In this document: one piece after another, positions 43,106 to 64,000 of the stretch
How positions within the stretch are numbered: the stretch's first letter is position 1
Layout of the letters: each line of letters begins with the position of its first letter
Assembly: GCA_016278505.1 (NCBI GenBank)
Contig: JADQBQ010000002.1
Span: 153,638-217,637 of the forward strand
DNA: 64,000 nt
Source of the DNA: Clostridiales bacterium
GTDB lineage: Bacteria; Bacillota; Desulfotomaculia; Desulfotomaculales; VENG01
Reading direction: 5' to 3'
Program-made: the position numbers and the translations under genes
The notes under the pieces: generated by a model
Told to the model about the DNA's origin: nothing
Database searches by the model: none
The model's input: the letters and a program-made list of their open reading frames with translations, nothing else

Positions 43106-43109
43106 CTTT

Positions 43110-45115: not shown

Positions 45116-45231
45116 AATTCCTCCCCCCCTTAAGACATAAAAATAACTGCTTTTTTAAGAAGCAGTTAGCGAACATTTTTGCATATTTTTTTAAATTGTC
45201 TTGGGCATACGAAAAACCAAAGGGAAACTAT

Positions 45232-45279: not shown

Positions 45280-45309
45280 TACACTTTTTCTTATTGTGAG
45301 GGAAAATTA

Positions 45310-45666
45310 ATGAAAAATCCATTTCCTGAAAGACTTAAGCAGATAATTAAAGAAAATGATTTAGCAGTTGCTGAGGTTGCTAAGGCAATTGATGTTTCAC
45401 CAAAAACTATTTATGCATTTATGAGTGGTGACCGGGGTCCTGCTTTTGATAGACTTGTTAAGTTAGCAGATTACCTTAACGTGTCTACGGATTATTTACT
45501 AGGAAAATCGGACGAGCCCACCGCGATTCTGGTTGAAGAAGGAGAAGAAGGAATTAAAGGTGAAGTTCTATATATTAGGAGAGCATACAAAAATTTATCA
45601 AGCAAAGAAAGAAAAATAATTATAAATTTAATTAAAAGCTTGGAAGACGATGACGATAAAGACTAG
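45310..45666 (+). CDS. XRE-family transcriptional repressor
   Basis: A 118-residue protein. Residues 8-62 form an HTH_3 domain (VAEVAKAIDVSPKTIYAFMSGDRGPAFDRLVKLADYLNVS in shorter pieces), ending with DYLLGKSDE as in SinR/phage repressors. The C-terminal half is acidic, helical and lacks protease motifs. It probably controls the divergent HNH operon and itself. The next gene overlaps its end by 17 bases, coupling it to the ImmA-like protein. Confidence 0.88.
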   Translation: MKNPFPERLKQIIKENDLAVAEVAKAIDVSPKTIYAFMSGDRGPAFDRLVKLADYLNVSTDYLLGKSDEPTAILVEEGEEGIKGEVLYIRRAYKNLSSKERKIIINLIKSLEDDDDKD

Positions 45667-46195
45667 CCCTCCAAAAACCGACAATAAACGACATAGCTAT
45701 GCACAGGCAAAAGCTAAAATGTTAAGAAGGATAGTAGGATTGAACACCGCCCCGATACCGCTTGAAGAAATCCTGATTAACCAAAAGATTTCAGTTAGTT
45801 ATGTATTTGATTTGCAGGAAATGATTTGTCTTAAATACGATGATAGAAACATCATCATGTTCCCTCCAAGTTCAGATAGAAACAGAGACCGGTGGTACCT
45901 TGCTCAGGGGATTGGTCATTTTTGTTTGCATCATTTTGAGGTATATGATGCAAATAGGATTATCTCGGGTATCCCACTAGAGACAACTACAGAGTACCAG
46001 TTGAAAAAACTACAAAAGGAAGCCAGCATATTCGCATCTGAAATATTACTTCCATTAAATCTTTTTAAAAGGTATATTACTCTAAATGCAGACATAGATC
46101 ACATAGCCGAGCAGGTAAGCAATCTAATTGAAATATTCCAAGTCCCGGAGGATGTTATCTATAATAGGTTGGGTCAAGTAGGCAGGAGGGGTTAA
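45650..46195 (+). CDS. ImmA/IrrE-like protein with a degenerate zinc motif
   Basis: A 181-residue protein, overlapping the XRE gene. The layout of the ImmA/IrrE family is present, including the late EASIFASEILLP segment with the third ligand glutamate. The HExxH motif is replaced: the expected AHELGH reads AQGIGH, losing the first histidine and the glutamate. Proteolysis is therefore doubtful; it may act as a binding antagonist of the repressor. In phages and ICEs, ImmA cleaves the neighbouring repressor (ImmR) upon DNA damage. Confidence 0.7.
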   Translation: MTIKTSPPKTDNKRHSYAQAKAKMLRRIVGLNTAPIPLEEILINQKISVSYVFDLQEMICLKYDDRNIIMFPPSSDRNRDRWYLAQGIGHFCLHHFEVYDANRIISGIPLETTTEYQLKKLQKEASIFASEILLPLNLFKRYITLNADIDHIAEQVSNLIEIFQVPEDVIYNRLGQVGRRG

Positions 46196-46204
46196 CCCCT
46201 CCTG
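46183..46204. terminator. bidirectional terminator between convergent ImmA-like genes
   Basis: A perfect 22-base palindrome CAGGAGGGGTT/AACCCCTCCTG overlapping the stop region of the plus-strand gene and near the stop of the minus-strand gene. Confidence 0.65.
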
Positions 46205-46205
46205 T

Positions 46206-46736
46206 TTAGCTCGCTACGTGTATTTTTCTTAACCTTTCTTTTATAATTTCCCGGGGGACTCCTGCGGTTTTGACTGCGAAATTGATTTGGTTCTCGGTTG
46301 GTCTACTGGTTAAGTTATTCAACACCCATTTCCTGGGCAACAGAAACTCATGAGCAAATAGGTCCGCTTCTTGAGTTAGGATATCAATTTCTTCATTGGT
46401 TAAGTTTTCTTCTATTAAACTCCTATTCAGCTTGTCAACTGTAAACTCTTCAAAGTGTCCGAGATAAATATGGGCAAATTGCTGTATCAATGTCCAGTTG
46501 TTTGGGAAATATGTATCCCCTGGTAGTATAATGTACTTGTTGCCATGAAGGATAATTATTGGCTTTTTGATCTCCACATGATGAATTTCAGTGTTATACG
46601 CTGTCAAAATTTCCCGGATCGGGAATGGAGGGTTTTTAAGGTTAAACTCTTTGTAAAGTTGTTCGGCCTTTTGAGTTACATAATGATGCCTTACCTTTTT
46701 AGGTTTCATAAACGATGGTTGTACTACACCTCCCAT
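46206..46736 (-). CDS. second ImmA/IrrE-like protein with a degenerate zinc motif, behind a c-di-GMP riboswitch
   Basis: A 176-residue protein of the ImmA/IrrE fold, with EADLFAHEFLLP near residue 125. The HExxH position reads QQFAH (WTLIQQFAHIYLGH), so again the first histidine and the glutamate are missing. It is convergent with the similar protein at 45,650-46,195 but only distantly alike. The first ATG 46,736 has no close ribosome site; MKPKKV nine residues on is the alternative, with GGGAGG further upstream. A c-di-GMP-I riboswitch lies 100 bases upstream on the same strand. Confidence 0.68.
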   Translation of the reverse strand: MGGVVQPSFMKPKKVRHHYVTQKAEQLYKEFNLKNPPFPIREILTAYNTEIHHVEIKKPIIILHGNKYIILPGDTYFPNNWTLIQQFAHIYLGHFEEFTVDKLNRSLIEENLTNEEIDILTQEADLFAHEFLLPRKWVLNNLTSRPTENQINFAVKTAGVPREIIKERLRKIHVAS

Positions 46737-46798
46737 TTTTTAAAAATCCATGAACGTTAGACGAGAGAAGCGTACGCGTTTCCCTCCCTTCTAAATAT

Positions 46799-46830
46799 AA
46801 AGAGTAGCCTTTTAAAAAGGACTACTCTTT
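46799..46830 (-). terminator. expression-platform hairpin after the riboswitch
   Basis: AAAGAGTAG pairs with CTACTCTTT, continued by CCTTTT/AAAAGG. On the minus strand a U-rich ATATTT tail follows. It lies just after the aptamer and could be its switchable terminator. Confidence 0.65.
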
Positions 46831-46837
46831 TCTTAAT

Positions 46838-46920
46838 TGAGCAGCCTGGCAACCATAGTAGAAAATACCGTAGGCCCATTGGCTTTGCGTCCCGGTCTTT
46901 CGACCAGTTTGCCCTATTTA
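46838..46920 (-). ncRNA. cyclic-di-GMP-I (GEMM) riboswitch
   Basis: On the minus strand the aptamer core matches the Vibrio Vc2 class: AGGGCAAAC, then CUGGUCGAAAGACCGG with its GAAA tetraloop, GGACGCAAAGCC, the GGGCCUA segment and UAUGGUUGCCAGG, which holds the tetraloop receptor. All conserved blocks occur in order and spacing. It binds cyclic di-GMP and controls the downstream mRNA, here probably the ImmA-like gene at 46,206-46,736. Confidence 0.93.
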
Positions 46921-46977
46921 GTTGACTCAGGGATGGATTTCCTATTATTAAAAGGACCATTGTCCTATTGTGATCGC

Positions 46978-47003
46978 AAAAAAAATAGAAGGAGTTGCCT
47001 TCT
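46978..47003 (-). terminator. early terminator between the upstream promoter and the riboswitch
   Basis: AGAAGG-CAACT-CCTTCT followed by A and eight T on the minus strand. It lies about 30-50 bases after the predicted start of the promoter at 47,037-47,065 and 60 bases before the aptamer. Confidence 0.7.
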
Positions 47004-47036
47004 TTGAGCTTTGAGACTGGAATACTTGTCAGGGAG

Positions 47037-47065
47037 ATTATAACATACAAACACTTGTTTGGCAA
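47037..47065 (-). promoter_or_regulatory. promoter upstream of the riboswitch leader
   Basis: TTGCCA (47,060-47,065), exactly 17 bases, TATAAT (47,037-47,042). Transcripts from here would meet the hairpin at 46,978-47,003 and then the aptamer. Confidence 0.65.
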
Positions 47066-47104
47066 AGGGTTTGACTACCATAAATTAAACTTAATTATAT
47101 AAAG

Positions 47105-47136
47105 AACCTACCCCAAAAAGTAGGGATAGGTTTTTT
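47105..47136. terminator. terminator after the broken DUF3006 gene
   Basis: AACCTACCCC pairs with GGGATAGGTT; T-rich on both sides. It lies 24 bases beyond the DUF3006 stop codon on the minus strand. Confidence 0.7.
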
Positions 47137-47159
47137 ATATAACTGATTCAAATTGTCGG

Positions 47160-47297
47160 CTAAAAAAAATAATCTACTAACCCGTTTATCCTTGCACGTC
47201 TATTTTCAGTAGCCTTTCTATTTATTTCTATGTTGATTTTTAAAACGTCACCCTCTTTAGCTTCATCAGGTATAAGGGCTTTAGGAATGTTGAAGGT
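47160..47297 (-). pseudogene. DUF3006 gene, C-terminal part (split by the IS200/IS605 element)
   Basis: The frame TFNIPKALIPDEAKEGDVL ... NGLVDYFF is the C-terminal two thirds of a DUF3006 protein. Its N terminus (MLVIDRFEGEWAVVEYN) is found on the other side of the insertion at 49,456-49,509. Joined they give about 63 residues. DUF3006 genes usually follow an MBL/ComEC-like hydrolase gene, as they do here. Confidence 0.8.
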
Positions 47298-47301
47298 ACT
47301 T

Positions 47302-47341
47302 CGCGCCGCATTCTTCTGAATTTATTCAGGAGTTAGGCGCG
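47302..47341. repeat. left-end hairpin of the IS200/IS605 element
   Basis: Outer CGCGCC/GGCGCG and inner TCTTCTGAA/TTCAGGAGT stems. Such subterminal hairpins are recognised by TnpA. A further 12-bp inverted repeat (AAGTTACTATGT, 47,356 and 47,384) stands in front of tnpA. Confidence 0.75.
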
Positions 47342-47414
47342 TTTTCTCTCTTCATAAGTTACTATGTGTATGATACGATATATACATAGTAACTTGTGCA
47401 AGGAGCTGTAAGCC

Positions 47415-47819
47415 ATGGAGCTTCAAAGAAACCGTAACAGTGTGTACCAAATAGGTTACCATATAGTTTGGTGTACAAAGTACCGTAAGCAAATACTAAC
47501 AGATCAGATTGCCGAAGATATGCAAGAGTTGCTAACCAAAATAGCTGAGGATAACAATTTCACCATCGAGAGCATGGAAATCATGCCAGATCACATACAC
47601 CTTTTCGTTACCGCTACGCCAAATCATTTAATAGCCAGCATGATAAAGGCACTTAAAGGGGTATCTGCTCGGTACCTGTTTAAAAAGCATCCCTACTTAA
47701 AAAAGCAGTTGTGGGGCGGACACTTGTGGAACCCCAATTACTACGTTGGAACGGTCGGTAATATATCGGAACAGACGATTAAGAAATATATCGAAACTCA
47801 AAAGAAGGCGGGTGATTAA
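47415..47819 (+). CDS. tnpA: IS200/IS605 transposase TnpA (HUH/Y1)
   Basis: A 134-residue single-strand transposase. The HUH motif is DHIHLF near residue 62, and the nucleophilic tyrosine lies in the helix near the C terminus (IKKYIETQ). It cuts and joins single-stranded DNA at the end hairpins as a dimer. It appears complete. tnpB starts 2 bases later. Confidence 0.93.
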   Translation: MELQRNRNSVYQIGYHIVWCTKYRKQILTDQIAEDMQELLTKIAEDNNFTIESMEIMPDHIHLFVTATPNHLIASMIKALKGVSARYLFKKHPYLKKQLWGGHLWNPNYYVGTVGNISEQTIKKYIETQKKAGD

Positions 47820-47821
47820 CT

Positions 47822-49141
47822 ATGCCGCATCTGCATGGATTCACCAAAACAAGCAAATATAAGTTAATCACACGATCAGACATAGAAAACCAGCTATTAT
47901 GCACAACCAAACTTTATAACATAGCAGTTTCATACTATCTGCAAGTGTTTCAAGACCATCCCAAAACACTGGGACAGGGGCAATGGTTAATAATAGCGGA
48001 AACGCTTACACATAGGACAAAATTTAACCCCAACCCGGTGTATCCATTGGATACGATATTACCAAACCTACCGTCTGGACTTAGGCGGGCTGCTATTTCG
48101 GAAGCCTATGGGTTAGCTCTGGCGTGGCAAAGTAGTTATAACAACTGGCAGAACAAAAAAGTTCGCCAGAAAGAGAAAAATAAAGAACGTGTGGCTAAGG
48201 GTAAGAAACCCATCGTGTTTACTGACCGGCCACCACAGTATCCCGAGGAAAGTAACGCATGGCCCGTGTACTATGGCACTGAACATAAATGGCTAGATAA
48301 AAACCATATTATGTTAAAGCTATATACGGGAAAAGCCTATGTGTACCGCAAAATAGCACTGGCCGAACCCTTCATAGTACCGGATGGTTACGAAGCTGGT
48401 TCACCGTCTTTAGTATACAAACCCACCGGTTGGGAATTGCATATACCGCTAGTATTACAAAGAAAAGTCGGCCTTAAAAAAATAACAACTTTGGTTAAAA
48501 ATCCAGAGCTTAAGTTATGTGTAGTAGATTTGGGTATAACCCGTCATGCAACAATAACCATTCAAGATACCGAAGGCAGGGTCTACGCTACGAAGTTTAT
48601 CTCCGGGCGAAAAGATAACCACCTTAGGAAGCGGTATCTGGAAAAGATAGTTAGACTACAAAAGAAAACCCGCATTATCCCGGAAGGTGAGCGTTTCGCT
48701 AAGCACCTATGGGATAAGGTAAGTAACCTAAACGATGATATTGCCCACCGGGTTTCCAAACAAATAGTTGAGTTTGCCAGTCATCACGGTGCTGGAATAA
48801 TCGTATTTGAGCACCTTGGTAACTTAAAGCCGGAGAAAGGCACTAAATCCCGCCGGTTAAACCAAAAGCTTGGTTACTGGGTAAAGGGTCGTATCTTCCG
48901 CTACAGCCAATACAAGGCACTGCACCAGGGTATCATCACCAGCCGGGTTAACCCGAAGAACACGTCCAAAAGATGCCCCTACTGCGGGATGTTAACAATT
49001 GAGCGTTATAACCCGGGCAACAGATGTGAGGCAGGTAATGACTTAGCCTGGTGCACTAACTGTAATACCCATGATATTAACGCTGATTTTATCGGCACCT
49101 TGGGTATTGGGTTAAAATTTAGGTTAAGGCACTGTTCTTAA
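47822..49141 (+). CDS. tnpB: RNA-guided nuclease TnpB (IS605 OrfB)
   Basis: A 439-residue protein. The split RuvC site is intact: aspartate in CVVDLGITRHATI near residue 238, glutamate in IIVFEHLGNLKP near residue 335, aspartate in DINADFIGTLG near the end. A four-cysteine zinc finger (CPYCG ... CTNC) lies between the last two. TnpB is the ancestor of Cas12; it uses an RNA from the right end of the element to cut the empty donor site. It looks functional. Confidence 0.92.
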   Translation: MPHLHGFTKTSKYKLITRSDIENQLLCTTKLYNIAVSYYLQVFQDHPKTLGQGQWLIIAETLTHRTKFNPNPVYPLDTILPNLPSGLRRAAISEAYGLALAWQSSYNNWQNKKVRQKEKNKERVAKGKKPIVFTDRPPQYPEESNAWPVYYGTEHKWLDKNHIMLKLYTGKAYVYRKIALAEPFIVPDGYEAGSPSLVYKPTGWELHIPLVLQRKVGLKKITTLVKNPELKLCVVDLGITRHATITIQDTEGRVYATKFISGRKDNHLRKRYLEKIVRLQKKTRIIPEGERFAKHLWDKVSNLNDDIAHRVSKQIVEFASHHGAGIIVFEHLGNLKPEKGTKSRRLNQKLGYWVKGRIFRYSQYKALHQGIITSRVNPKNTSKRCPYCGMLTIERYNPGNRCEAGNDLAWCTNCNTHDINADFIGTLGIGLKFRLRHCS

Positions 49142-50884: not shown

Positions 50885-51139
50885 CTAAATTAAAACAACT
50901 CTTTTGAACCCACTCGCAACACTGTCCAATCGATTTATCTGCTCAACAATAAACTCCGCTAACCACCTATTCGGTATAGCCTCGAAGCCCCAGTAAACCC
51001 CAGAAAGACCACCAGTGAGTGCTCCAATGGTATCAGCATCACCACCCAGGTTAACGGCACTTACCACGGCCTCTTCAAAAGAAGTCCCTTTAAAAAAGCA
51101 GGACAGAACACAGGCCAAAGAATCGACGGTATAACCACT
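50885..51139 (-). pseudogene. ADP-ribosylglycohydrolase gene, C-terminal part (split by IS21)
   Basis: The frame from the insertion border reads SGYTVDSLACVL and then GGDADTIGALTGGLSGVYWG, the second metal motif of the family. The N-terminal part lies at 53,646-54,376. Removing the insertion and one copy of the 5-bp duplication restores one uninterrupted frame (LDPSGYTVDSL). Confidence 0.88.
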
Positions 51140-51211
51140 TGTAACCGGTAAAATAAACTTAACAACTTTAGGCAAATAAGAATCAACACTATTTACCACA
51201 AAGCACCAATT

Positions 51212-51249
51212 CCTATATGATTGAGCTGGAAAAAAATCAATCATATAGG
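51212..51249. repeat. 12-bp inverted repeat in front of istA
   Basis: CCTATATGATTG and CAATCATATAGG with a 14-base spacer end 9 bases before the istA start, overlapping its ribosome site. It could hide the site in transcripts entering from outside. Confidence 0.6.
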
Positions 51250-51258
51250 GAGCGGCAT

Positions 51259-52852
51259 ATGAAACGAGAAGAAAGGTGGCAAATGTACTCCAGAATCCAT
51301 GAATTAAAGAGACTTAATCTTAAAGTGTCTCAGATTGCAAGGCATGTTGGAGTTTCCAGAAATACTGTTTACAAATACATCAACATGATGCCGGAAGAAT
51401 ATCATCAATACCTGGAGAGGAGGGAAACAAGAAAGAAGAAGCTTGATGAATATGAAGGTGAAATACTGGGCTGGCTAAAAGAATATCCTGATCTATCCAT
51501 AGCCCAGGTTTATGACTGGCTGCGAGACGAACACCCTAAAATTAACATGTGTGAAAGAACCGTTGGGAATTTAGTTAACCAATTGAGAAAGGAGTATGCC
51601 ATACCGAAAACTGTGTATAAAAGACAATATGAAGCTATTCCTGACCCGCCTATGGGTTACCAGGTACAAATAGATTTTGGTGAAAAGAAACTCAAAGATC
51701 CTGAAGGAACATTACACAAACTGTGGTTTATTGCTTTCGTGCTCTCAAACTCCCGGCAAAAGTACGTAGAGTGGCTAGACCGGCCATTTACTACGGCAGA
51801 TTTAATAAGAACACATGAAAATTGTTTACGGTACTACGAAAATGCCGGTGGAATTTGTGTACGACCAGGATCATGTTGTACTGGTAAGTGAAAACCATGG
51901 CGACTTAATATACACCTACGAATTCGCAGCCTATCGGCAGCAAAGGGATTTTAAGATCCACATGTGCAGGAAAAGTGATCCGGAAAGTAAAGGCCGCATC
52001 GAAAATGTAGTTGGTTTTGTTAAGAAAAACTTTGCTAAACACCGTATCTATTACAATCTGGACAAGCTTAACGAACAAGTCCTGGATTGGCTGAAGCGCA
52101 CGGGAAACGGCAAAATGCACAACATTACAAAGAAAATACCGGCCGAAGTGTTTTTAGAAGAGAAAAAACACTTAAGACCGGTACCAACCACAATATCTAT
52201 CAAATTAGCTAACGGTAGTATATCAAGGTTGGTAAGGAAAGACAACACTATATCATTTAAAGGAAACCGTTATAGCGTTCCCCTTGGCACATATGACGGC
52301 ACGGAAAAGTACGTAAAGGTTTATGTTGAAGATAAAGACATGCTGGTTATCGGTGACATAGAAACTGACTTGGAAATTACCCGCCACCATCTCTGTCACG
52401 CAAAGGGGAAGCTTATTAAGAATAATAATCACGGCCGTGACCGGTCGAAAGGTATCCCTGAGTACATTAAAACGGTGGCAGAGCTCTTGGGTAACACAAA
52501 AGAGGCCAGGGACTTCTTAGAAAGGATATACGAGCTTAAACCCCGGTATATAAGGGACCAGCTGCAATTAATCAGCAGTGAAGTAAAGGATGTAAATAAC
52601 AAAACTATTGCCATAGCCTTGAATTATTGCCGGAAATACAAACTTTACAGTGCAACTGATTTTACAGATGCTTTAACGTACTTTGTGGCTCAAGACATAA
52701 GTGTAATACAGATAGCAGCCGCAGGAGAACAAGAGTCAGATATTAAGATGCTGGATGAAAAAGATGTTCTTAACCTAAAAATCAAGCCCCAAACTAGGGA
52801 TGTTAAGGTTTATCAACAAATAGCGAGCGGAGAGATGCCATGCAACAACTAA
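51259..52852 (+). pseudogene. istA: IS21 transposase istA, broken by a one-base frameshift
   Basis: The first frame (51,259-51,891) gives the HTH (VSQIARHVGVSRNTVYKYI) and the first DDE aspartate (VQIDFGEKK). The second frame (from 51,815) supplies the second aspartate (VYDQDH) and the glutamate (GRIENVVGF). Removing one A from the AAAA run at 51,839-51,842 joins them into YYEMPVEFVYDQD. The needed shift is +1, unlike the usual -1 programmed shifts of insertion sequences, so a mutation or sequencing error is likely. Confidence 0.85.
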
Positions 52853-53595
52853 ATAATGAATTAAAACAGTACATGAAGACACTGCGAATTTCAGAGGCTG
52901 CCGGTATTCTTGATACCCTGCTGATGGAAGCTGAAAAGAAAGGGTTTACCTATCAGGAGTTTTTATGCAAATTAATCAAGCATGAGGTAAAGATGCGGGA
53001 TGAAAAGTCTATGGGAAGGCGGCTTAAACAGGCTGCCTTTCCGGAACACAAGACGCTTGAAGAGTTTAATGTAAATGAACAAGAATCTTTGAGCAAAAAA
53101 CAGCTCAAACAGCTTAAAGAGCTACAATGGCTGGAACAGGCGTATAATTTGATACTGCTGGGTCCACCAGGTGTTGGTAAAACCATGATTTCTATTGGCC
53201 TTGGGTTTGAGGCGGTGTACAGTGGCTATAAAGTTAGTTTTATAACCATGGATGAGCTAGTACAGGTTCTTAAAACCCAGGAAATCACGCGTGGCTCTAA
53301 AACAAAACTGAAGCGTATTATTGCCTCAGACCTAGTCATTATTGACGATTTAATGTTTTTAGCCATGGATCGTCATGAGGGTAATCTATTCTTCCAGCTA
53401 ATTAACAAGCTTTATGGCCAGTCCTCAGTGATAATAACTTCTAACAAAGGCCCAGAGGATTGGAGTGAATTAATAGGCGACAAGGCGATAGCTACTGCTA
53501 TATTAGATAGGCTTATTCACAGAAGCGAGGTAATAAACCTTGCTGGTGACAGCCACAGGATGAAGCACAGGGAAACCATTTTTGGTAATAACTAG
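52840..53595 (+). CDS. istB: IS21 helper ATPase IstB
   Basis: A 251-residue AAA+ ATPase of the DnaC/IstB type. Walker A GPPGVGKTM near residue 110 and Walker B LVIIDDLMF near residue 168 are intact. It overlaps istA by 13 bases and chooses the target site for IstA. Complete. Confidence 0.93.
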   Translation: MQQLNNELKQYMKTLRISEAAGILDTLLMEAEKKGFTYQEFLCKLIKHEVKMRDEKSMGRRLKQAAFPEHKTLEEFNVNEQESLSKKQLKQLKELQWLEQAYNLILLGPPGVGKTMISIGLGFEAVYSGYKVSFITMDELVQVLKTQEITRGSKTKLKRIIASDLVIIDDLMFLAMDRHEGNLFFQLINKLYGQSSVIITSNKGPEDWSELIGDKAIATAILDRLIHRSEVINLAGDSHRMKHRETIFGNN

Positions 53596-53645
53596 GTGTT
53601 AAATCTTATTTGCTAAAATTTGTTCAAAGTTACTTGACAGTCACA

Positions 53646-54376
53646 CCACTGGGGTCCAGATCATCGTATTGCCGTTTTTCGATATCAAAAAGCTTATCAA
53701 GAACCAGCTTTTCGGCAACATTAGAAAACTTAGCCGGTACTACTTCCAGAAATGTATCTTTTGTCTTTTCCCACGCTACTACCTTATTAGTAGTGCCGGA
53801 AATAAACTCCCGAGCTAAAAGGCTATATAAACAACAAGTTAAGCCAGCTTCCGGGTCCCAGTGTGTCATGCGCGCAATCATCATACTCATCATATAAATA
53901 TCAGCAGGATCTTTGTACATAAATGCAACAGGCAGAGTTCTCATTAATGCTCCGTTGCCAGCTGTAAGACCCTCTTCTTTATGTATTTCCTCAGCGGCCT
54001 TTTGCCAGTTCTTTAGTTTATTATACTTTCTTATAGCAAGCCTAGTAAAAAGGCCCATGGCTGGATGGTCAATCTTGGCAAACTCAATAAAATTTTCGCC
54101 AATACGCCTTACAGGATCATGGGGGTTGGCAAGTATCCCTTTCGCAACGGCAATAGTCATTGCGCTATCGTCTGTCCATTCACCAGGTTTTAGCCCTAAC
54201 CAGCCACCGCCAACGATGTCCCTTAATTGGCCATGTCTTCTTTTTATTTCTTCTTTAGAAAGATACTCTACAGTGGATCCTAATGCATCGCCTACTGCCA
54301 AGCCAAACATGCCTCCGTGGATTCGGTTCAGGGATACCACCCCTCTCAAGTGAAGTTCATTGAAGCCCAGTTGCAA
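53646..54376 (-). pseudogene. ADP-ribosylglycohydrolase gene, N-terminal part (split by IS21)
   Basis: The frame contains GLAVGDALGSTVEY, EWTDDSAMTIAVAKGILANP and the conserved TGNGALMRTLP-like AGNGALMRTLPVAF. It runs into the insertion sequence after LDPSG. It is a relative, not a copy, of the intact gene at 19,604-20,527. The start is uncertain; the frame opens at 54,376, and GAGAGGGGTGG stands before codon CTG near 54,330. It lies downstream of the sigma factor operon on the same strand. Confidence 0.85.
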
Positions 54377-54716: not shown

Positions 54717-55844
54717 TTAATAATCTAATTTTAATATTCTTGCCCTGGATGGATGCCTGAGTTTCCTAAAAACTCTTGCTTCTATCTGTCTAATCCTTTC
54801 TCGCGTTAGATTAAAGATTTGACCAACTTCTCCTAAGGTTCTAAATTTTCCATCCTCCATCAAACCATATCTCCACTTAACAACCTCGCATTCCCTATCA
54901 GTTAAGGTAGCGAGAACTGTTTCAATATTTTGTTTTAAATTTCTTCGCTTTTCCTCACCAACAAGCATGTCCATCAACTCACCATTATCGCTAAAAACAA
55001 AGCTATCTAGTTCATTATCTAAGATTTCCTCAATACTCAATGGTTCTTCCAAAATATCTAGATACTTTTCTGCAGTATCTTCCCCAACACAAAACTGCTG
55101 GCATATATCATTAATTAGCAGCGGACAAAATCTTATGCGATAACACTCTTCACAACTATGTTGATTTTTTAAGTCAATAACTTCATACATTTTATTTTTT
55201 ATATGTGCTGGCAAATAATACTTATTGCTTATCCCTTGCGTTGAACGATCTATATTTTGTCTAATCCACCAAGGTGCATAAGTAGAAAACTTAATTTCTT
55301 GAGGGATTTTTTCAAGCGCAATCACTAACCCAGTATTAGCATCCTGTATGGTTTCATCTAAAGGCAATGAATATTTTTCAAAGTACCATAGGGCTATCCT
55401 CAATGCTACTTTCAAATACATGGTTATTATACGCTCTTTGGCGTAAGCATTATTATCTTTTGCGTGATAAATTAGTGTAGCTTCCTCCTTCCGCCGGGGA
55501 GGGGGAAGGACCTTAACCTCATCGATATAATTTGTTAAGGACGGGTCGAGGCTAATGACTTTATTAAATATTGCATTGTAATCAAGTTTACTTCTGTCAT
55601 AAGAATATTCTTCAAACTCGTCATCTTGAAACTGATAATCTTCTTCCCCATCTCGGATAATTATCCCTCTGCTAGTCAAAATTTCACAGAACCTATCGAT
55701 CTCATCTATGGGAAAATCAACATCATCAATAGACTTAAGGACATCATCGATTAAGATATATCCTTTAATCATTGAAAGCGCTGTAAGTTCTTTAATTATC
55801 AGCTGTTTTCCTTGCTCCATACTTGTCATATTCACCACTACCAT
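54717..55844 (-). CDS. primary-type sigma-70 factor with a five-cysteine insertion
   Basis: A 375-residue RNA polymerase sigma factor. The N terminus resembles region 1.1 of RpoD (LSMIKGYILIDDVLKS ... FCEILTSRGIIIRDGEEDY). Region 2 is divergent (FSTYAPWWIRQNIDRS near residue 187). Region 4 is strong (LTDRECEVVKWRYGL, FNLTRERIRQIEARVFRKLR). In region 3, residues 231-252 carry five cysteines (CEEC, C, C, C), an insertion not found in housekeeping factors and suited to zinc or an Fe-S cluster. It starts one base after the preceding gene and closes the putative defence operon, so it may redirect polymerase to element promoters. Confidence 0.85.
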   Translation of the reverse strand: MVVVNMTSMEQGKQLIIKELTALSMIKGYILIDDVLKSIDDVDFPIDEIDRFCEILTSRGIIIRDGEEDYQFQDDEFEEYSYDRSKLDYNAIFNKVISLDPSLTNYIDEVKVLPPPRRKEEATLIYHAKDNNAYAKERIITMYLKVALRIALWYFEKYSLPLDETIQDANTGLVIALEKIPQEIKFSTYAPWWIRQNIDRSTQGISNKYYLPAHIKNKMYEVIDLKNQHSCEECYRIRFCPLLINDICQQFCVGEDTAEKYLDILEEPLSIEEILDNELDSFVFSDNGELMDMLVGEEKRRNLKQNIETVLATLTDRECEVVKWRYGLMEDGKFRTLGEVGQIFNLTRERIRQIEARVFRKLRHPSRARILKLDY

Positions 55845-55845
55845 T

Positions 55846-56376
55846 TTAAGTTCTAGCAAGTTTACACAGTTCAACTATACTGTCGCTTGAGACAGCTTCA
55901 TTATAGCGCTCATTGAACTCATCCATAAAATCATATAAATTCTTGACGTAATCTTCACTCACAGTAGCGTTTTCTATAAGCTTTTCATATAAAACATCAA
56001 CCCCACCGAGCACATACTGATCAAAAATTATTTCGTCGTCCTTTGTTTGATCACTACCGTAATATCGAAAAGCCTTGTTAAGACGCTCATCGAATGATGC
56101 CTCATTCTTCTTATCAAGTAGCATAATTAATTGATAGTTATATTTTAGGTTAGTCAGTTCATTAGAAAGTTGCTGTGGGAAAATTTTAGTAGTCTCACTG
56201 TTAGTCTTATTAACATCGGCTTTGCACCCATATAAAAAACCTATCAGCGGTGCTATTATGTAAACATCAATGTTGCGGGCAAAAAGCCTTGCTTTACTAT
56301 TACTATCAAATTGAGCTGTAAGTTTGACAACTTTTTCCGCATGAGAACCTCTAAAAGAATACTCTTTATCAAACAT
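55846..56376 (-). CDS. conserved protein of the putative defence operon, 176 residues
   Basis: Soluble protein with FRGSHAEKVVKLT near the start and RNIDVYIIAPLIGFLYGCKAD in the middle. I cannot name the family with confidence; small DndE-like or Ssp-associated partners of the neighbouring ATPase are possible. The ATG 56,376 follows GAGGTGAT, which itself contains the stop of the ATPase gene, so translation is coupled. The longer GTG start at 56,385 is unlikely. Confidence 0.6.
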   Translation of the reverse strand: MFDKEYSFRGSHAEKVVKLTAQFDSNSKARLFARNIDVYIIAPLIGFLYGCKADVNKTNSETTKIFPQQLSNELTNLKYNYQLIMLLDKKNEASFDERLNKAFRYYGSDQTKDDEIIFDQYVLGGVDVLYEKLIENATVSEDYVKNLYDFMDEFNERYNEAVSSDSIVELCKLART

Positions 56377-56381
56377 AATAA

Positions 56382-58376
56382 TCACCTCGTCATAAGATAG
56401 GTCTCAAATTCATTTTTTTTGTCAAACAAGTATCGCCTACCAACTTTCGCACCCATATTATCTTCTGCCAGTTCGCCATCGGTATCTTTAATAAAGATAA
56501 TAACCTGTTCTGCAATCTTAGGCAGCGCATCACAGACAGTTTTAATTCTGCGCTTATCAAAAGCAGATAATGGAGCATCCATAACAAGAGGATATGGTTC
56601 TGAATCCAACATTTTCGTTTCAGCATCTGTTGCGCTACTGTTCTCTCTCGCCATCTTGATTATACCTGAAATGAAAGCAAAGATAACGGAGATGCTCTGA
56701 GCCGTTGAAGTCTCTACATCGGTATTATAACCATCAAACTCCTCTACAAACGCTTGAATATTGTACTTTTCATCAATAGTAACTGACAATCCACCTTTAT
56801 AAATACCCTTGAAGATTTTGTTGATGCTTTTTTCCAACTTCTCCCTGGTCAGATTTTCGTTATGTTTATACGCCTTATCGATTTCGTTATACATATACTG
56901 TGCATATGCCTTATAGATTTCAATCTTTCTATTATTCTCATCGCGAAGCGTTAATTCAGCCCTTTCCGTGATTAAACGGTCCCGGGAAGTTTCCAATGCA
57001 CCTTTTTTACGGTTAAGCTCGTCTCTTTCAGTTTGACGATTCCTGATTATTTTTTCATACTTCATTAAATCTCGTTGAACAGTAGCAAATTCTTCCTTTC
57101 CAATTAATTTCTTTTCAATTAATTGGATTTGGTTTTTCTGCTCATCAATTCTATTTTCATAATCTCTAACCAAAGCATACTGCCCAGATATGTCATCAAA
57201 TAAACTAGTAGAAGATTTTGTCCTCAACTCTGATTCTTTGATGAAATGTCCGATAGAAACTCCTATAGATTGAGGAGGTATAAACGCTAATGCATTATTT
57301 AATTCTTTATATGCGTCGTTGCCAAATTCTATTTTTGTTCCACAGACACACTCACCACGCTTAATTAAAAACTCGATGGTACGAGCGTGCATGTCCGGAA
57401 TTCCCTTGTCCAGCTTATCTGCCTTTGACAAGCTCTCCAAAGCATCTTTAATCATCGACTTAGCAAAATACGAGGAAGCATTTGTGTTGAAATGCTTAAG
57501 CAAAGTAGCTATAGCCGAGGATTTTGCCTGCTTCGTTTGGTCAACAGTATTTTTGAGCTTTTCTTTTTCCTTCTGTAACTTTTCGCTTTCCGCGTTCATG
57601 GTTAGCTTTAATGAGAGCTCTTCACATTTATCCCTTGCCAGTTGTACTTCGGTTTCTATCTCATCAAGTCGTGAATCTATATTTCTAATGTTATCCTGCT
57701 TTTCTTCTATATCTCTAGTATACAGGGCTATCCGTTCATTACTGGAAGAATCGTAGCTTTCATTATAGCTTCCGATAACACCATACTTTGAAGTGGGTTT
57801 TAAATGTTCTAGTGCGGAAATAAAAGCATTTAAGCCTAGCAACCCCCGCACTGCTTGGGCAAACTCTTGGCTTCTTCCTTTTTTAACATCCTTGCTCATA
57901 TTCCCAATACGCTCACCATCAAAGAAGAAATACCTTGAAAGCTCTTTCGGTAAAATTTGCTTCATTCTAACTTCTGCTTCGAGGGGTTTAAGAAATTCCT
58001 TCTGTCCATCCTTTTTATATGAGATATTGAAGGAGGTATTTGATGCCTTGATTTTGCCGGTTAAATCTTTCTTATATACCTGTTCCCGGATGATAGTATA
58101 GTCTGTTCCGCTGTGGGTTAGATCTAAATCAACCCGTACCCGACTCTCGTTATCGGGTAACATTTGACCTTCGACAATCTTGTTTAGCATTAATTTATCA
58201 TCAAAGTCTGTGTCCCCATAGAGGCACCAGGAAAAGGCCTGAGCAAGCGTTGTCTTGCCGGATCCATTTTCACCCATGATGACCGTTACATTCTTATCAT
58301 CATCAGTGGCAAATAAAATCTCTTGTTCACCTTTAAACTGCCGAAAATTCAATAGTTTTAAGGATTTTAGTAGCAT
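56382..58376 (-). CDS. DndD-like SMC/Rad50-type ATPase
   Basis: A 664-residue protein with head-coil-head design. Walker A GENGSGKTTLA lies near residue 35, the conserved RYFFFDGERIGNMSKDV near 155, a long coiled coil interrupted by a CVCG motif (zinc-hook-like) near 340, and Walker B YPLVMDAPLSAFD near 598. DndD of phosphorothioate systems has this layout and the FFFDGE motif. It may provide ATP-driven DNA handling for modification or restriction. It overlaps the small gene upstream and the 176-residue gene downstream by a few bases. Confidence 0.8.
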   Translation of the reverse strand: MLLKSLKLLNFRQFKGEQEILFATDDDKNVTVIMGENGSGKTTLAQAFSWCLYGDTDFDDKLMLNKIVEGQMLPDNESRVRVDLDLTHSGTDYTIIREQVYKKDLTGKIKASNTSFNISYKKDGQKEFLKPLEAEVRMKQILPKELSRYFFFDGERIGNMSKDVKKGRSQEFAQAVRGLLGLNAFISALEHLKPTSKYGVIGSYNESYDSSSNERIALYTRDIEEKQDNIRNIDSRLDEIETEVQLARDKCEELSLKLTMNAESEKLQKEKEKLKNTVDQTKQAKSSAIATLLKHFNTNASSYFAKSMIKDALESLSKADKLDKGIPDMHARTIEFLIKRGECVCGTKIEFGNDAYKELNNALAFIPPQSIGVSIGHFIKESELRTKSSTSLFDDISGQYALVRDYENRIDEQKNQIQLIEKKLIGKEEFATVQRDLMKYEKIIRNRQTERDELNRKKGALETSRDRLITERAELTLRDENNRKIEIYKAYAQYMYNEIDKAYKHNENLTREKLEKSINKIFKGIYKGGLSVTIDEKYNIQAFVEEFDGYNTDVETSTAQSISVIFAFISGIIKMARENSSATDAETKMLDSEPYPLVMDAPLSAFDKRRIKTVCDALPKIAEQVIIFIKDTDGELAEDNMGAKVGRRYLFDKKNEFETYLMTR

Positions 58377-58531
58377 TCTACTTCCTCCTCTATAGCCTTC
58401 TTTATCTTTTTAACCATTTCCGCATCATTGTTTTGCTTAGTCCTCTTGTTAACTTTCTCCATAATAATAAGCTTTTTGAGCAACCGTTTGGCTTTCTTCT
58501 CATCAATCTCAATACCATTAACCTCTGCCAT
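58367..58531 (-). CDS. 54-residue charged protein of the defence operon
   Basis: ATG 58,531 follows GGGGGGTG. The product is helical and lysine-rich (KKAKRLLKKLIIMEKVNKRT) with an acidic tail (IEEEVECY). Its stop overlaps the start of the ATPase gene (TGCTACTAA/ATGCTACTA). The 5' neighbour helicase ends 48 bases before it. The overlap and ribosome site argue for a real gene that most pipelines miss. Confidence 0.65.
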   Translation of the reverse strand: MAEVNGIEIDEKKAKRLLKKLIIMEKVNKRTKQNNDAEMVKKIKKAIEEEVECY

Positions 58532-58578
58532 TGTTCACCCCCCTCTTCTGTTACTATTTAATTAATTATTAATAAAAA

Positions 58579-60723
58579 TTACTTTTCGTACAGGTTATAA
58601 GCATCCTTAATCTGCTGAATGACCACATCGGCCTCCATTTCATTCATTGCTATTCGTGAAAATTCCTCCGCTCGGTTTAACTCATTTCTTATTAGCGATA
58701 AGTCTTTTTTCATTTCATCAAGGGTAAGCGATGATACCTCATCTAGTGGCCTTGGAGTAGTAATAAAATCATAAATCTCAGCAAAGTCTTTCCCCTTGGC
58801 TAATCGTAAGACACGCCCACGTCTCTGGATATACTCTTTGGGGTTTGTCGTACTAGCCAAAATGAATGCCACTTTGATTTTGGGAATATTAACACCTTCG
58901 TCCAAGCATTTGATAGCAATCAAAGCTTGAAGGTTATCTCCTTCTTCAAATTCTCGCTTGAGGATTTCTCTTTCCTCAACATCTTCTTTTGATGTAAATT
59001 GTGATACCTTCATATTAAGTTCTTTACCTAGTAATAATGTGACTGCATCGATTTGGCGGATATCATCGTCTTCAACTGGTGTATAGTCATCATTGTCACC
59101 GAGCAAGGACGCAGCGCCACAATATACCAATATATAACTCTGGTTTAAATAAGGATTGATAAGCTCGCGGAGCTTATCAATCTTTGCATCTGCTGCTGCT
59201 ACGAGCCTTGCCCTCTTAAGTGCAATTCTCTCGCCTTTTTTAGAAAGTCTCAACTTACCGTTTTTACCTTTAATCAAGCACTTACCCATTTCTTGTGATA
59301 AGAAAGAATATTCCTGCAACTCCTTTTCTGAAAGGTTGACAAGCACAGGATAGTACTTGTAAGGCGTAAGCTTGTATTCTTCAATAGCTCTTTCCAAAGG
59401 GTATTCGATACATTTCTTTCCAAAGTAACTTTTAAGCTTCTTTGTGCCTTCCTCATCGTTATGACGTTCCAATGTTGCTGATAATGCCAATCTAAAATTA
59501 AAAGTTTCGGTAAGCATTGAGCTTAATCTTTCTGAACCAAAATTATGTGCTTCATCTACAACAAGCAGCGCATTGCCTTTTATTTTTGAAAGTTGTTTTT
59601 GAACAAATTCCGATGCGAAAGTAGCATTAGTACATACAAAGCAGTAGAACTCTCTATTCTTAACGTTTAATTTTTGGTCACGAATTGCGTTTTCCAGCTT
59701 ACGCTTCCAGTCACGCTGCGGGGAACTACTATAACCAATAATAGGGTTAATATTAAACTTCACAATATCTTCAACCCATTGTTCAACTAAATGCTGAAAT
59801 GGACAAACAATTATAACTGCAAGTTGGTACTCACAATGGCTATACAACTCTACTATAGCTCCCAAACCAGTATAAGTCTTACCAGTACCTGTAGCCATAT
59901 CAAAAATTCCTCGGAAATCATATTTAACCCACTCATCGATTGCTCCTAGCTGGTAATCGTGAAGACGTATCCCTTTAGGAACGCATGGTCCCTTAGGGAC
60001 CAAATTATGGTTGACGTAAAAATACTCAGTTTCGTCTATTTGCATATCTATCGGCCCTTGTTTGTATGTTTGGAGTTTTTCACTGGCTACCTTAGGAAAT
60101 TCCACGATACTAACATTAGGTTCATGGTCATTCCAAAGCGTGTTAAAAGCTATATCCTTTGCCCTGACGCGAGCATTGTCTTCGGTCCAGGAACAAAACA
60201 CATCAATAGTTTCGTAGTTGTGCATAAAAGCAGTAGAAGTTTCATTCATGGAGCCGGTAAAAGCAACAATATTGTCTTTCTCGTCGTAAAGAAGCCCCAT
60301 CTTCTCATGGTAAATACCAACACCGTCAACTGCCTCAGTAAAGGCGATCTTAATGTCTAAACGTCCCTCGGCGATCAAATTGGCTAGCATGTTTAGCCGT
60401 TTCTCTTCAAAGAGGTCGCGTGGTTCTGTTATGGAATTGAGTACGGCACGTTCAATCACATGAACTCGTTCTTCGTAACCTATGGTAATTGCCTTTACAT
60501 CCCCATCCTGTAAATTTGGGGATGCTATCAACATTATGCGACCGTCATTTTTAATAAGGCCAGTTATACCGCGGGAAATTTCAATTAGGGCTGATGATGA
60601 GAAGAAACCCACAGCACGTTTATATAACACTGCATTTCGGAGAGTTGGAATATAAAAATCCGTAACAACATTATCACATAGCGAACGGTATTCGGACTTG
60701 ATGCTTAACCCCCGAAATCCCAT
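58579..60723 (-). CDS. SF2 helicase with an N-terminal phospholipase D-like domain
   Basis: A 714-residue protein. The N-terminal 200 residues look like a PLD nuclease (HEKMGLLYD ... FTGSMNETSTAF, the HxK-GSxN half-site). Residues 260-690 are a DEAD/DEAH helicase: DMATGTGKTYTGLGA, LLVVDEAHNFG, LALSATLERH and QRRGRVLRLAKG. Such fusions occur in many defence loci and may unwind and cut foreign DNA. ATG 60,723 has AGGGGGG 7 bases upstream; the first T of that site lies in the stop codon of the desulfurase gene. Confidence 0.88.
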   Translation of the reverse strand: MGFRGLSIKSEYRSLCDNVVTDFYIPTLRNAVLYKRAVGFFSSSALIEISRGITGLIKNDGRIMLIASPNLQDGDVKAITIGYEERVHVIERAVLNSITEPRDLFEEKRLNMLANLIAEGRLDIKIAFTEAVDGVGIYHEKMGLLYDEKDNIVAFTGSMNETSTAFMHNYETIDVFCSWTEDNARVRAKDIAFNTLWNDHEPNVSIVEFPKVASEKLQTYKQGPIDMQIDETEYFYVNHNLVPKGPCVPKGIRLHDYQLGAIDEWVKYDFRGIFDMATGTGKTYTGLGAIVELYSHCEYQLAVIIVCPFQHLVEQWVEDIVKFNINPIIGYSSSPQRDWKRKLENAIRDQKLNVKNREFYCFVCTNATFASEFVQKQLSKIKGNALLVVDEAHNFGSERLSSMLTETFNFRLALSATLERHNDEEGTKKLKSYFGKKCIEYPLERAIEEYKLTPYKYYPVLVNLSEKELQEYSFLSQEMGKCLIKGKNGKLRLSKKGERIALKRARLVAAADAKIDKLRELINPYLNQSYILVYCGAASLLGDNDDYTPVEDDDIRQIDAVTLLLGKELNMKVSQFTSKEDVEEREILKREFEEGDNLQALIAIKCLDEGVNIPKIKVAFILASTTNPKEYIQRRGRVLRLAKGKDFAEIYDFITTPRPLDEVSSLTLDEMKKDLSLIRNELNRAEEFSRIAMNEMEADVVIQQIKDAYNLYEK

Positions 60724-60735
60724 CTTCAATCCCCC

Positions 60736-61890
60736 CTAACTGTTAATGCGGATGTATTCTAGTGCTTCCCGTAAAGCGTCTACATCTGCTTCCGTATTGA
60801 AGTAACTCACGCTCAGCCGAACCGTGCCGCCAGGAAAAGTTCTAATAAAGCGGTGCGCATCCGGCGCGCAATGTAGCCCGGTTCTCACAGCAATGTCAAT
60901 ATCACTAAGAATTTGACCTATGTTGTTGCTACTATATCCTTTAAATACACAAGATATCACCCCGATACAATCAGCCCGCGGGAGAATTAAATCAACAATG
61001 TCAAACTCCTGTAAGCACTTAATAACCTGCTTATATATTGCTTGTTCCTTTTCGTATATAGCCTGTATGCTAGTTTTTTCGATCCATTGCAAGGCTGCGT
61101 TTAATCCTGCAATAGACTGCACATTCAGACTACCTACCTCAAACCGCTCCGGGACAGTGCTAGGTACGTTAGGGTTGGAAGAATCTATACCGGTGCCCCC
61201 CAAAAGCAAAGGACGTAGAGGTGAGTTACTATCAGTGATAAATCCGGCAACACCAAAAGGACCATATAACGTTTTGTGCCCAGCAAACACGGCATAATCC
61301 ACCGAAATACCACCAAGATCCGTATCTATCAACCCCGCGGTTTGTGCCATATCCACTATGATTGTGGTTTTGTATTGTTTAGCCAAACTAATAATTTCTT
61401 TAATGGGTGTAACCAAGCCGCACACATTGCTAGCGTGGTTCATAATTAATACGTCCGGGCGCGCATCTTGAAATTGATATTCAATGGCCTCTAGGTCATA
61501 GCATAAATTATTGCGATCCACATTTAATTGGATAATTCTAAGATTATAAATAGAACGTAAATAGTGGAGTACACGAAGCACAGCATTATGTTCAAAGGGA
61601 GTTATATATATTGTTTGCCCGTCCTGCCAATCCAGACCCCGTATCACAATATTTAGGGCTTCAGTAGCAGAAGCCGTAAAAACAACGCGTTTTTGCGTAG
61701 GACAACACATGAGCTTTAGCATCCTATTACGTGTGTCGTCCACAAGAGCTGCAACTTCTGCCGCCCTTTTGTATTGGCCACGACCTAAACTCACACCTTT
61801 TTCTCGATAAAAAGTATCCATCATGACATAGACTTCTTCCGGCTTAGGCATGGTGGTGGCAGCATTATCAAAATAAACCATCCTACTCAT
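60736..61890 (-). CDS. cysteine desulfurase (DndA/SspA or Csd type)
   Basis: A 384-residue fold-type I PLP enzyme. YFDNAATTMPKPE starts the protein, the PLP lysine is in FAGHKTLYGPFG near residue 208, and the active cysteine lies in RTGLHCAPDAHRF near residue 340. It takes sulfur from cysteine as a persulfide. In phosphorothioate systems a desulfurase (DndA or SspA) feeds the DNA sulfur modification; its location within this operon supports such a role. A housekeeping Fe-S role is the alternative. Confidence 0.85.
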   Translation of the reverse strand: MSRMVYFDNAATTMPKPEEVYVMMDTFYREKGVSLGRGQYKRAAEVAALVDDTRNRMLKLMCCPTQKRVVFTASATEALNIVIRGLDWQDGQTIYITPFEHNAVLRVLHYLRSIYNLRIIQLNVDRNNLCYDLEAIEYQFQDARPDVLIMNHASNVCGLVTPIKEIISLAKQYKTTIIVDMAQTAGLIDTDLGGISVDYAVFAGHKTLYGPFGVAGFITDSNSPLRPLLLGGTGIDSSNPNVPSTVPERFEVGSLNVQSIAGLNAALQWIEKTSIQAIYEKEQAIYKQVIKCLQEFDIVDLILPRADCIGVISCVFKGYSSNNIGQILSDIDIAVRTGLHCAPDAHRFIRTFPGGTVRLSVSYFNTEADVDALREALEYIRINS

Positions 61891-61920
61891 GTTTTCGCCT
61901 CTCTTCTGGTAAAATATACA

Positions 61921-64000
61921 TTACTCACATAGCATCTCAATAATATCAAGCAAAACTTGCCTTAGTTCCTGTTTAGAAACTGCTTCACCGTACTCGTCAA
62001 TGTTATTGGTTACCTCGTTGTAGAATAGTTTAGCCCTTTCACTATATGAAGTCTTATCGAAAGTTCTGATTACTTCGTTGCCTTTGTCATTAACTAAAGA
62101 AAGGCTATAAATACCTTTACTTAATCCACTTTCGGTTAATTCCTTAGCTTTATTCTGTTGCTCCACGCTATCTTTGAATTGCTTGAGTGATACAGAGAAG
62201 GAATCTATAGTATCATCCTCCCAGTCATCAATACGAAGCCCGGTTAGATTACGAGCTAGCGATTCAATAAACCGAGAATGGTCATTAGTCATGTCCCGGA
62301 TGAGGGTAAGAATTCGCTCTTCTCCCGATGCAAAAATGTGATTTTTAATCTGGCCAGATAGTCCGTCATACCAATCCAACATAACTGATCGGAAAGTCGC
62401 TTTTGGGGATTGATGCTTGCTAAATAAATGGATGACCTCTTGGGTTACCATGTCTACCAAGCATCTCTTTGCACGACTTAAAGTATTTTTTGAGTCTTCG
62501 ATTTTACCAAGTAACTCCTCATCTATTTCAATACGGCCAAACGTTTTTGGGAGTTTATTAAATAAAAATTCATGGGCGTTTATCTCTGATAACTTCAGAC
62601 TATTCCTAAATTGCTTTTCACTATTGCTAATGGTAATATACCTACCATCTGACTGATAAATTCGATTAGTTTCCTTAGCATACTTAGGCAATTGAAGAAA
62701 CCAACGTTGCATAGCTTTAACAATATAATCAAATGAATTATAATTCTTTTCACTTTCACGCATATTATCGGCAAATATCTGCTCTAATCCTTTGATGTAA
62801 GATTCTTTTTGCTCGTTCCAATCTTCCAGATAAGCTTCATATTCTTTAGGGTTGTCGTTAATGCTATCGAGAAGTCTAGCATTTATCTCCATCTCTCTTC
62901 CGCCTCGTACAATTACTACATGTTTTTTTATTATGTGTAAAACAGCAGCAATAAAGATGGGAATGATACCTTTTTTAAGCCCAATATGGTGTTCTGGACG
63001 AGTCAATACATCGTATAATTCTTGAAAGTTTCTTTTTCCTACTTTTGAAGACTCGATGAAAAAAGATTTAATGATATCTATGGTATATTGTATTTTTGTC
63101 TCCAAACCGTCCAAGCGAAGGGAAGGACGATCCTCATCTTCATTAATCACAATGATATCAGTGTTTTTCAAGGTGCTACGCATAATACTGACATCTTGCC
63201 CATGACCTTCCAGCCCTAATTTCGGCTTTAGTTCTTTCATTAACAAACCAGCCAATACCTTCCGGCGGCTGTTGATAACCACATTTGTAGGCACGTCTTT
63301 ATTGATAACCTCATTGTTGATTATCGGCGCAAGTGAATAGACATTTTTACAGATATTAGAAAGCAATTGCGAAATCTGCGATTTGCGGTAGATGAGCTTC
63401 TCCTGTCCTTTGTGGTAATAGGAACTCATTCGCAATTCGGGCCGTGAGTAGATATCTATATATGAGCGAATTACTTCCGCCAAATCATTAAAATAAACCG
63501 TCAATTCCTCGCAAAGCAACGTATCATCTGCTTGCTGTGACAGAATGGAGTCGACCGCATCAAATTTACGTAGAGTTTCCTCAATATCATATAACCGACG
63601 GGGAACAACTAATACTACCCGCTCATGCTCTATAGCCTGCACAGTAGCAATGGCCGTTTCCACATCTTCAGACTTATCCAGTAGCAAAGCAAAAACAGCT
63701 CCGGTTGATATCCTATCGGAGAGTTTCTTATCCCAATTTTTGACAGATTGCAAAGTTCGTAATGTAGTAAATTCAAAATCAAAATACCGCGTAATCTCGT
63801 GATCATCATTATAACCGGTAGGGTATAGCCATCTGTCTCGTATGTAATAGTTAAGTACCGAAAGGATATCAAATACGGTGCTGCGTTTAACGACTGTATC
63901 GGAAATTAAACTGCCAATATCAACATCCGTACTTACCATCAGCCGTAGATAATATTTACTTTTCATTAGATACAGGTACCGCTTGTCCTGCAAGTTGTTA
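61921..64000 (-). CDS. large protein of the defence operon, 5' part outside the window
   Basis: At least 690 residues are visible and the frame is still open at the right edge; the TTG at 63,993 is probably internal. No Walker motif is present in this part. A segment GLKKGIIPIFIAAVLHIIKKHVVIV, followed by an LDSINDNPKEYEAYLEDW stretch and LQLPKYAKETNRIY, resembles the C-terminal halves of large BrxC/PglY- or SspC-like ATPases, whose P-loop would be N-terminal and thus outside. This is inference from pattern. It is followed after 30 bases by the desulfurase gene. Confidence 0.6.
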   Translation of the reverse strand, partial: NNLQDKRYLYLMKSKYYLRLMVSTDVDIGSLISDTVVKRSTVFDILSVLNYYIRDRWLYPTGYNDDHEITRYFDFEFTTLRTLQSVKNWDKKLSDRISTGAVFALLLDKSEDVETAIATVQAIEHERVVLVVPRRLYDIEETLRKFDAVDSILSQQADDTLLCEELTVYFNDLAEVIRSYIDIYSRPELRMSSYYHKGQEKLIYRKSQISQLLSNICKNVYSLAPIINNEVINKDVPTNVVINSRRKVLAGLLMKELKPKLGLEGHGQDVSIMRSTLKNTDIIVINEDEDRPSLRLDGLETKIQYTIDIIKSFFIESSKVGKRNFQELYDVLTRPEHHIGLKKGIIPIFIAAVLHIIKKHVVIVRGGREMEINARLLDSINDNPKEYEAYLEDWNEQKESYIKGLEQIFADNMRESEKNYNSFDYIVKAMQRWFLQLPKYAKETNRIYQSDGRYITISNSEKQFRNSLKLSEINAHEFLFNKLPKTFGRIEIDEELLGKIEDSKNTLSRAKRCLVDMVTQEVIHLFSKHQSPKATFRSVMLDWYDGLSGQIKNHIFASGEERILTLIRDMTNDHSRFIESLARNLTGLRIDDWEDDTIDSFSVSLKQFKDSVEQQNKAKELTESGLSKGIYSLSLVNDKGNEVIRTFDKTSYSERAKLFYNEVTNNIDEYGEAVSKQELRQVLLDIIEMLCE

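Follow-up and report, generated by a model that had tools for sequence, protein, structure and literature searches.

We analysed a 64,000-nucleotide stretch of DNA from a Clostridiales bacterium (assembly GCA_016278505.1, contig JADQBQ010000002.1, forward-strand positions 153,638 to 217,637; G000:C27:153638-217637), referred to here as the window. A minus-strand operon of nine genes, sspD-sspB-sspC-sspA-pbeA-pbeB-pbeC-pbeD-sigma, reaches into it and is part of a defence island. The original prediction, made from the window, described one minus-strand unit of seven near-contiguous genes ending in a sigma factor gene. All seven open reading frames (ORFs) are present at the proposed coordinates, neighbouring ORFs overlap or are separated by no more than 47 nt, and their families were matched far above chance. 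The operon extends beyond window position 64000 on the same contig, where sspC is completed. The two genes proposed to lie past this point, an SspD/DndC-type PAPS-reductase gene and a DUF4007/SspB gene, were both found directly upstream on the same strand.

The four ssp genes are of the kind that makes phosphorothioate (PT) modifications. sspD (window-equivalent 66461-68209, minus strand) encodes a 582-residue PAPS-reductase (PF01507, 2.3e-30) with the SGGKDS motif, zinc-ribbon-like cysteines at the start and a 4Fe-4S-like tail. The protein is BrxP-like, scoring 257 bits against BrxP of BREX type 4 and 50 bits against the SspD model. A BrxP-like build has been reported for a subset of SspD proteins (PMC12839542), and BREX type 4 (brxPCZL) is counted among the PT-making gene families (PMC11931770). 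sspB (window-equivalent 65562-66464, minus strand) encodes a 300-residue protein of the DUF4007 nickase type (Pfam 4.6e-83; PADLOC SspB 3.9e-62), which matched the solved SspB structure PDB 6juf at E 8e-22. sspC (61921..64000 in the window, continuing to window-equivalent 65565, minus strand) encodes a BrxC-like AAA+ ATPase of 1214 residues, 690 of them visible in the window, where the gene is open at the edge. It has the Walker A motif GAYGKGKS and matched PADLOC SspC at 6.3e-128 over residues 217-1136 (6.7e-49 for the window-visible part).

sspA (60736..61890, minus strand) encodes a cysteine desulfurase of the TIGR01977 kind (PADLOC 9.5e-40) with the active-site motif RTGLHC, which is common, with small changes, to its ssp-linked relatives. 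In the desulfurase tree the protein clusters with its counterparts from other ssp operons, and the three homologues encoded at other places in the host genome fall outside the ssp-linked set (88/87), supporting the earlier proposal that it is part of a PT system and not an Fe-S housekeeping enzyme. The proposed similarity of the desulfurase and the DndD-like ATPase to Dnd and Ssp sulfur modification was likewise supported. From these family assignments, the Ssp module is predicted to put PT into the host's own DNA.

The genes behind sspA correspond to pbeABCD. pbeA (58579..60729, minus strand) encodes a PLD (HxK) nuclease-like domain joined to a superfamily 2 (SF2) helicase. It was matched by PADLOC at 1.1e-243 and by NCBIfam TIGR04095 at 1.7e-153 and 512 bits, under the whole-protein cut-off of 600; in NCBIfam this model for the helicase portion of PbeA bears the name 'DNA phosphorothioation system restriction enzyme'. 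pbeB (58367..58531, minus strand) encodes a 54-residue protein assigned only by its position between pbeA and pbeC and by relatives that occupy this position, with relatives in 21 loci. pbeC (56382..58376, minus strand) encodes a DndD-related CxC-type ABC ATPase (PADLOC 1.5e-106) with the Walker A motif GENGSGKT and CVC at residue 343, and CxC is kept in 39 of 40 relatives. pbeD (55846..56385, minus strand) encodes a 179-residue DndE-like protein, assigned by predicted fold, position and conservation. The fold was predicted with a local distance difference test score (pLDDT) of 89, a high confidence, and the structures most similar to it are the three DndE entries (Z 7.4, 6.1 and 5.4; next unrelated entry 2.9). 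A sequence search with PbeD against the PDB gave no convincing match; a DndE-like nature has been stated for PbeD (PMC10853773).

The original prediction had compared the helicase, small protein and ATPase to a restriction module such as those described beside sspBCD. We rejected SspFGH, a module found there, as the restriction half in favour of PbeABCD, given the PADLOC matches of PbeA and PbeC and the TIGR04095 match; SspH, which is FtsK-like (PMC8092258), is not there. The search for other restriction partners covered the contig. PbeABCD is known from archaeal Dnd systems (PMC6459918, PMC10853773). Xiong et al. reported that PbeABCD with DndCDEA halts a virus in an archaeon with no visible cleavage (PMC6459918), while Rakesh et al. 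argued from the PbeA nuclease domain that cleavage does occur (PMC10853773). By analogy, PbeABCD is predicted here to attack DNA that lacks the PT mark.

The combination of Ssp with Pbe is recurrent. The compared loci comprised 20 neighbourhoods from a phylum-wide PbeA search, 21 loci from genome contigs and three found via the sigma gene (L033 and L056, being one and the same contig, were counted once). sspB and sspC lie on the pbeA strand in 28 loci besides the window, and half of the phylum-sample neighbourhoods (10/20) are of the Ssp plus Pbe kind. The hosts are mostly Bacillota, with single metagenome-assembled genomes (MAGs) labelled Bacteroidota and Campylobacterota; in an Actinomycetota MAG the ssp and pbe units are divergent. 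As the pairing shows, PbeABCD is not restricted to Dnd systems. We did not find it described in the literature searched, which left out subscription papers including the first SspABCD-SspE paper, and we do not claim priority.

The last gene of the operon, sigma (54717..55832, minus strand), encodes a 371-residue sigma-70 family factor; its ORF opens at 55874, and the ATG at 55832 is the probable start, favoured by relatives and spacing. Pfam matched sigma-70 region 4 (PF04545, 3.6e-15) and region 2 (PF04542, 2e-06), and among solved structures its closest relatives are SigA/RpoD, matched along almost the full length. The protein is the only full-length RpoD-type factor in the host genome beside RpoD (C13). 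Aligned with twelve RpoD proteins, it shares with them the melting block KFSTYxxWWIRQ and the IQ pair in region 2.2, as well as TRERIRQIE, the helix of region 4 that reads the -35 box. KFSTYAPWWIRQ and TRERIRQIE represent the retained RpoD residues that contact the polymerase, melt DNA and read the -35 box. The RpoD linker IADQARTIRIP is replaced, and the position of E. coli T440 varies (D, Y, I, I, A, V) among the sigma proteins of the six loci described below. With residue roles and numbering as in E. coli, the upstream edge of the -10 box is probably recognised differently from the way RpoD does it. The ratio of nonsynonymous to synonymous substitution rates (dN/dS) is 0.18-0.27 for sigma versus 0.07-0.13 for the Pbe genes; the sigma gene is under purifying selection, yet it evolves faster than the Pbe genes.

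These features bear on two alternative roles. The protein might be a back-up sigma that sustains transcription of the defence operon if a phage switches off or redirects the housekeeping sigma. Reading residues for the -35 box as in RpoD, next to region 2.4/3 surfaces that differ, would be expected if the promoters were similar and inhibitors were escaped, and the fast evolution of sigma would fit as well. Nevertheless, the altered residues at the upstream edge of -10 recognition point to a different promoter, and we know of no phage anti-sigma factor for these hosts; we consider a back-up role quite unlikely. The protein might instead be a poisoning factor, made or activated on infection, that takes core polymerase from the housekeeping sigma so that growth stops (abortive infection). 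The kept core-binding residues and the changed parts of the -10 recognition surface are compatible with such a role, which appears highly improbable given the conserved melting residues, the purifying selection and the cost that constant co-expression with the operon would bring.

A C-x2-C-x5-C insert lies between the region 3 helices. It is invariant in all six sigmas and absent from the 12 RpoDs, and a further cysteine, C49, is also invariant among the six. The structure prediction (mean pLDDT 72; predicted template-modelling score, pTM, 0.42) is too low for judging the geometry of the cysteine site.

The gene order with sigma is not unique to the host genome. sigma follows pbeD at a distance of 4-25 bp in six genomes, which represent six families: the window, G235 (L054), G086 (L055), G434 (L091), G424 (L092) and G413 (L093). 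The last three were found by the sigma profile alone among 113 genomes of the host's class (396-555 bits, versus at most 232 bits for RpoD), and all three adjoin pbeABCD. Searching three further classes and a phylum sample with sigma gave no additional loci. The search of viral contigs gave none, and the best matches on plasmids were about 31% identical and RpoD-like.

In the PbeA tree the six sigma loci form one clade (support 100/99), explained by one change, a single gain. sigma is not present in 22 other Pbe loci for which 1.5 kb or more of downstream sequence is available; the sister locus L033 ends 253 bp after pbeD and was left out of this judgement. In the SspC tree the three sigma genomes having sspC are scattered and need three changes. 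sigma thus moves with Pbe, not with Ssp, and belongs to the Pbe module. The modification half was swapped while Pbe and sigma stayed together, which predicts that Pbe reads or tolerates marks from different machines. The same data bear on sigma as an unrelated passenger of a mobile island. The island has transposases and a serine recombinase, as a passenger would suggest, but the constant position close after pbeD across six genomes from six families, the single clade, the purifying selection and the fact that all three loci found by sigma alone adjoin pbeABCD make this barely credible.

As a second, independent pattern, lone sigma region 4 domains were detected in other proteins near Pbe. They occur in large proteins (690-1320 residues) encoded directly upstream of pbeA (L066:5532-9002, L067:6041-8917, L068:9638-13045, L069:4991-8953 and, by position, G018), and proteins of the same kind are encoded upstream of sspD (L034:545-2611, L035:201-2627, L050:180-2600). 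Pbe loci carrying these large proteins are without the small sigma. A Pbe-only family was ruled out for them, as about half of those found lie elsewhere. Together with pbeA neighbours on Lactiplantibacillus plasmids annotated as sigma-like helix-turn-helix (HTH) proteins, and with the sigma-like HTHs described inside the defence effectors DndH (PMC10853773) and BrxL (PMC12839542), they suggest another function: the sigma-like protein could be a working part of the Pbe machine, its HTHs reading promoter-like DNA or binding RNA polymerase and so bringing PbeA-D to invading DNA that is actively transcribed. The six small proteins, however, retain regions 1.1-like, 2, 3 and 4 with core-binding and melting residues, beyond the need of a DNA-binding adaptor, and the large region-4 family also occurs away from Pbe. 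We regard the adaptor role as unlikely.

We consider it reasonably probable that the locus is a PT restriction-modification operon (Ssp with PbeABCD) having a dedicated sigma that directs the operon's promoter or another one in the island, the cysteine site being a candidate sensor. In the proposed mechanism, SspA would take sulfur from cysteine, and the PAPS-reductase-type SspD with the SspB/SspC pair would place it in the DNA backbone. PbeD (DndE-like) and PbeC (CxC ABC ATPase) would scan DNA, PbeA (PLD-helicase) would act on DNA without the mark, and PbeB may be a small regulator. The PT chemistry and an anti-phage action are predicted from the known families. The dedicated sigma-70, added behind pbeD in one Pbe clade, would bind core RNA polymerase and direct transcription of the Pbe/Ssp operon or of another island promoter, activating and not blocking it, so that supply of the restriction half would depend on a signal. 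The sensor (metal or redox) may be the region 3 site C-x2-C-x5-C. More tentatively, the three cysteines could sense metal, redox or sulfur state, the last being the same supply that marks DNA, and could thereby time transcription of the restriction genes relative to marking.

Several results count against a dedicated sigma serving this operon. No promoter specific to sigma was found: a consensus scan gave 46 promoter-like matches across the operon versus 47.6 in shuffles, and alignments of the regions upstream in the six loci revealed no obvious common element. The sigma gene evolves faster than the Pbe genes, as would also be expected if its role were looser or different. In most Ssp-Pbe operons sigma is missing, as the 22 loci checked indicate, and it is not needed for basic function. 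Two of the six sigma loci (L055 and L091) are without ssp genes beside Pbe-sigma, although the L091 contig ends near, so that the link of sigma to PT marks is not universal.

If the proposal is true, a sensor sigma would provide a restriction system with a safety catch at the level of transcription. As long as its DNA is unmarked, a cell can be killed by its own restriction genes, and the timing of marking versus attack is a question for PT systems; a dedicated sigma would answer it directly, and testably, in one clade.

Other features were observed around the Pbe-sigma loci. A DndB homologue and an IS110-type transposase lie between sspC and sspA in a sigma-bearing locus (L093:8010-11480), and a Ser/Thr protein kinase gene (L091:9310-10161) precedes pbeA by 29 bp in a Pbe-sigma locus that has no ssp genes. 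A related, partly frameshifted coding remnant (ISNALRKYY..NGR.FP.LS.Y) was detected upstream of pbeA in L092, L093 and L055 (~8900-9070), perhaps the relic of a lost partner gene.

Upstream of the operon studied here, Shedu SduA and Gabija GajB and GajA are encoded on the same strand to the contig end (window-equivalent ~71900-77100; L006:8545-13768), which places the operon in a defence island. Downstream (window 50885-54376), IS21-like istA/istB, with istA in two overlapping frames, splits an ADP-ribosylglycohydrolase gene, the parts of which lie at 53630-54376 and apparently at 50885-51244. Signs of mobile DNA were also found at window 38650-49141, with a large serine recombinase (38650-40170), a RecD2-like helicase (40874-42979), two M78 peptidase genes (45650-46736) and a TnpB-like gene (47822-49141). 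The suggested integrated element is plausible from the serine recombinase, IS21-like and TnpB-like genes nearby, but no attachment sites were found and the window has no tRNA; the search for repeats flanking the operon gave chance-like pairs only.

The locus resembles several known systems. DndCDEA-PbeABCD of Haloterrigena jeotgali (PMC6459918) and the CxC ABC-ATPase systems (PMC10853773) have the four genes pbeA-D arranged in this order next to a PT modification module; in the present locus the module is Ssp instead of Dnd, and sigma follows pbeD. SspABCD-SspE and SspABCD-SspFGH (PMC8092258) share sspA, sspB, sspC and a PAPS-reductase sspD as the predicted PT module; among the genes examined here there is no SspE or SspFGH, the partner is PbeABCD, and sspD is the longer BrxP-like form with the added cysteines and tail. 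BREX type 4 (PMC11931770, PMC12839542) likewise has a BrxP-like PAPS-reductase, a DUF4007 protein, a BrxC-like ATPase and a cysteine desulfurase. PglZ and BrxL were matched neither in the nine operon genes nor in the five upstream ORFs scanned to the contig end, and we therefore filed the locus as Ssp, not BREX.

The sigma protein has regions 2 and 4 in common with RpoD/SigA, including the residues for core binding, melting and the -35 box, and is 32-35% identical over the protein; it differs by the CxxCx5C insert in region 3 and a divergent region 2.4-3.0 linker, and the Pfam region 3 and 1.2 models did not match it. Mza (MzaABCDE; PMC9523054, NF041931) also has a sigma-70 domain protein in a defence operon, but MzaA is about twice as long as the sigma here, and among the matches listed there was none of the operon genes to MzaB-E. 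Kinship with MzaA was rejected, as the PADLOC MzaA model gave 93 bits for the sigma versus 236 bits for the host's own RpoD. A further MzaA match, of 151 bits with a cut-off of 800, reflects the shared sigma domain only. The original prediction that a sigma factor is undescribed for PT systems held in the literature searched, where we found none as a conserved part of such a system, with the qualification that a defence system with a sigma factor, Mza, is known. Taken together, the modification and restriction halves are of known kinds, and the sigma as a conserved part of a PT system is the new element relative to that literature.

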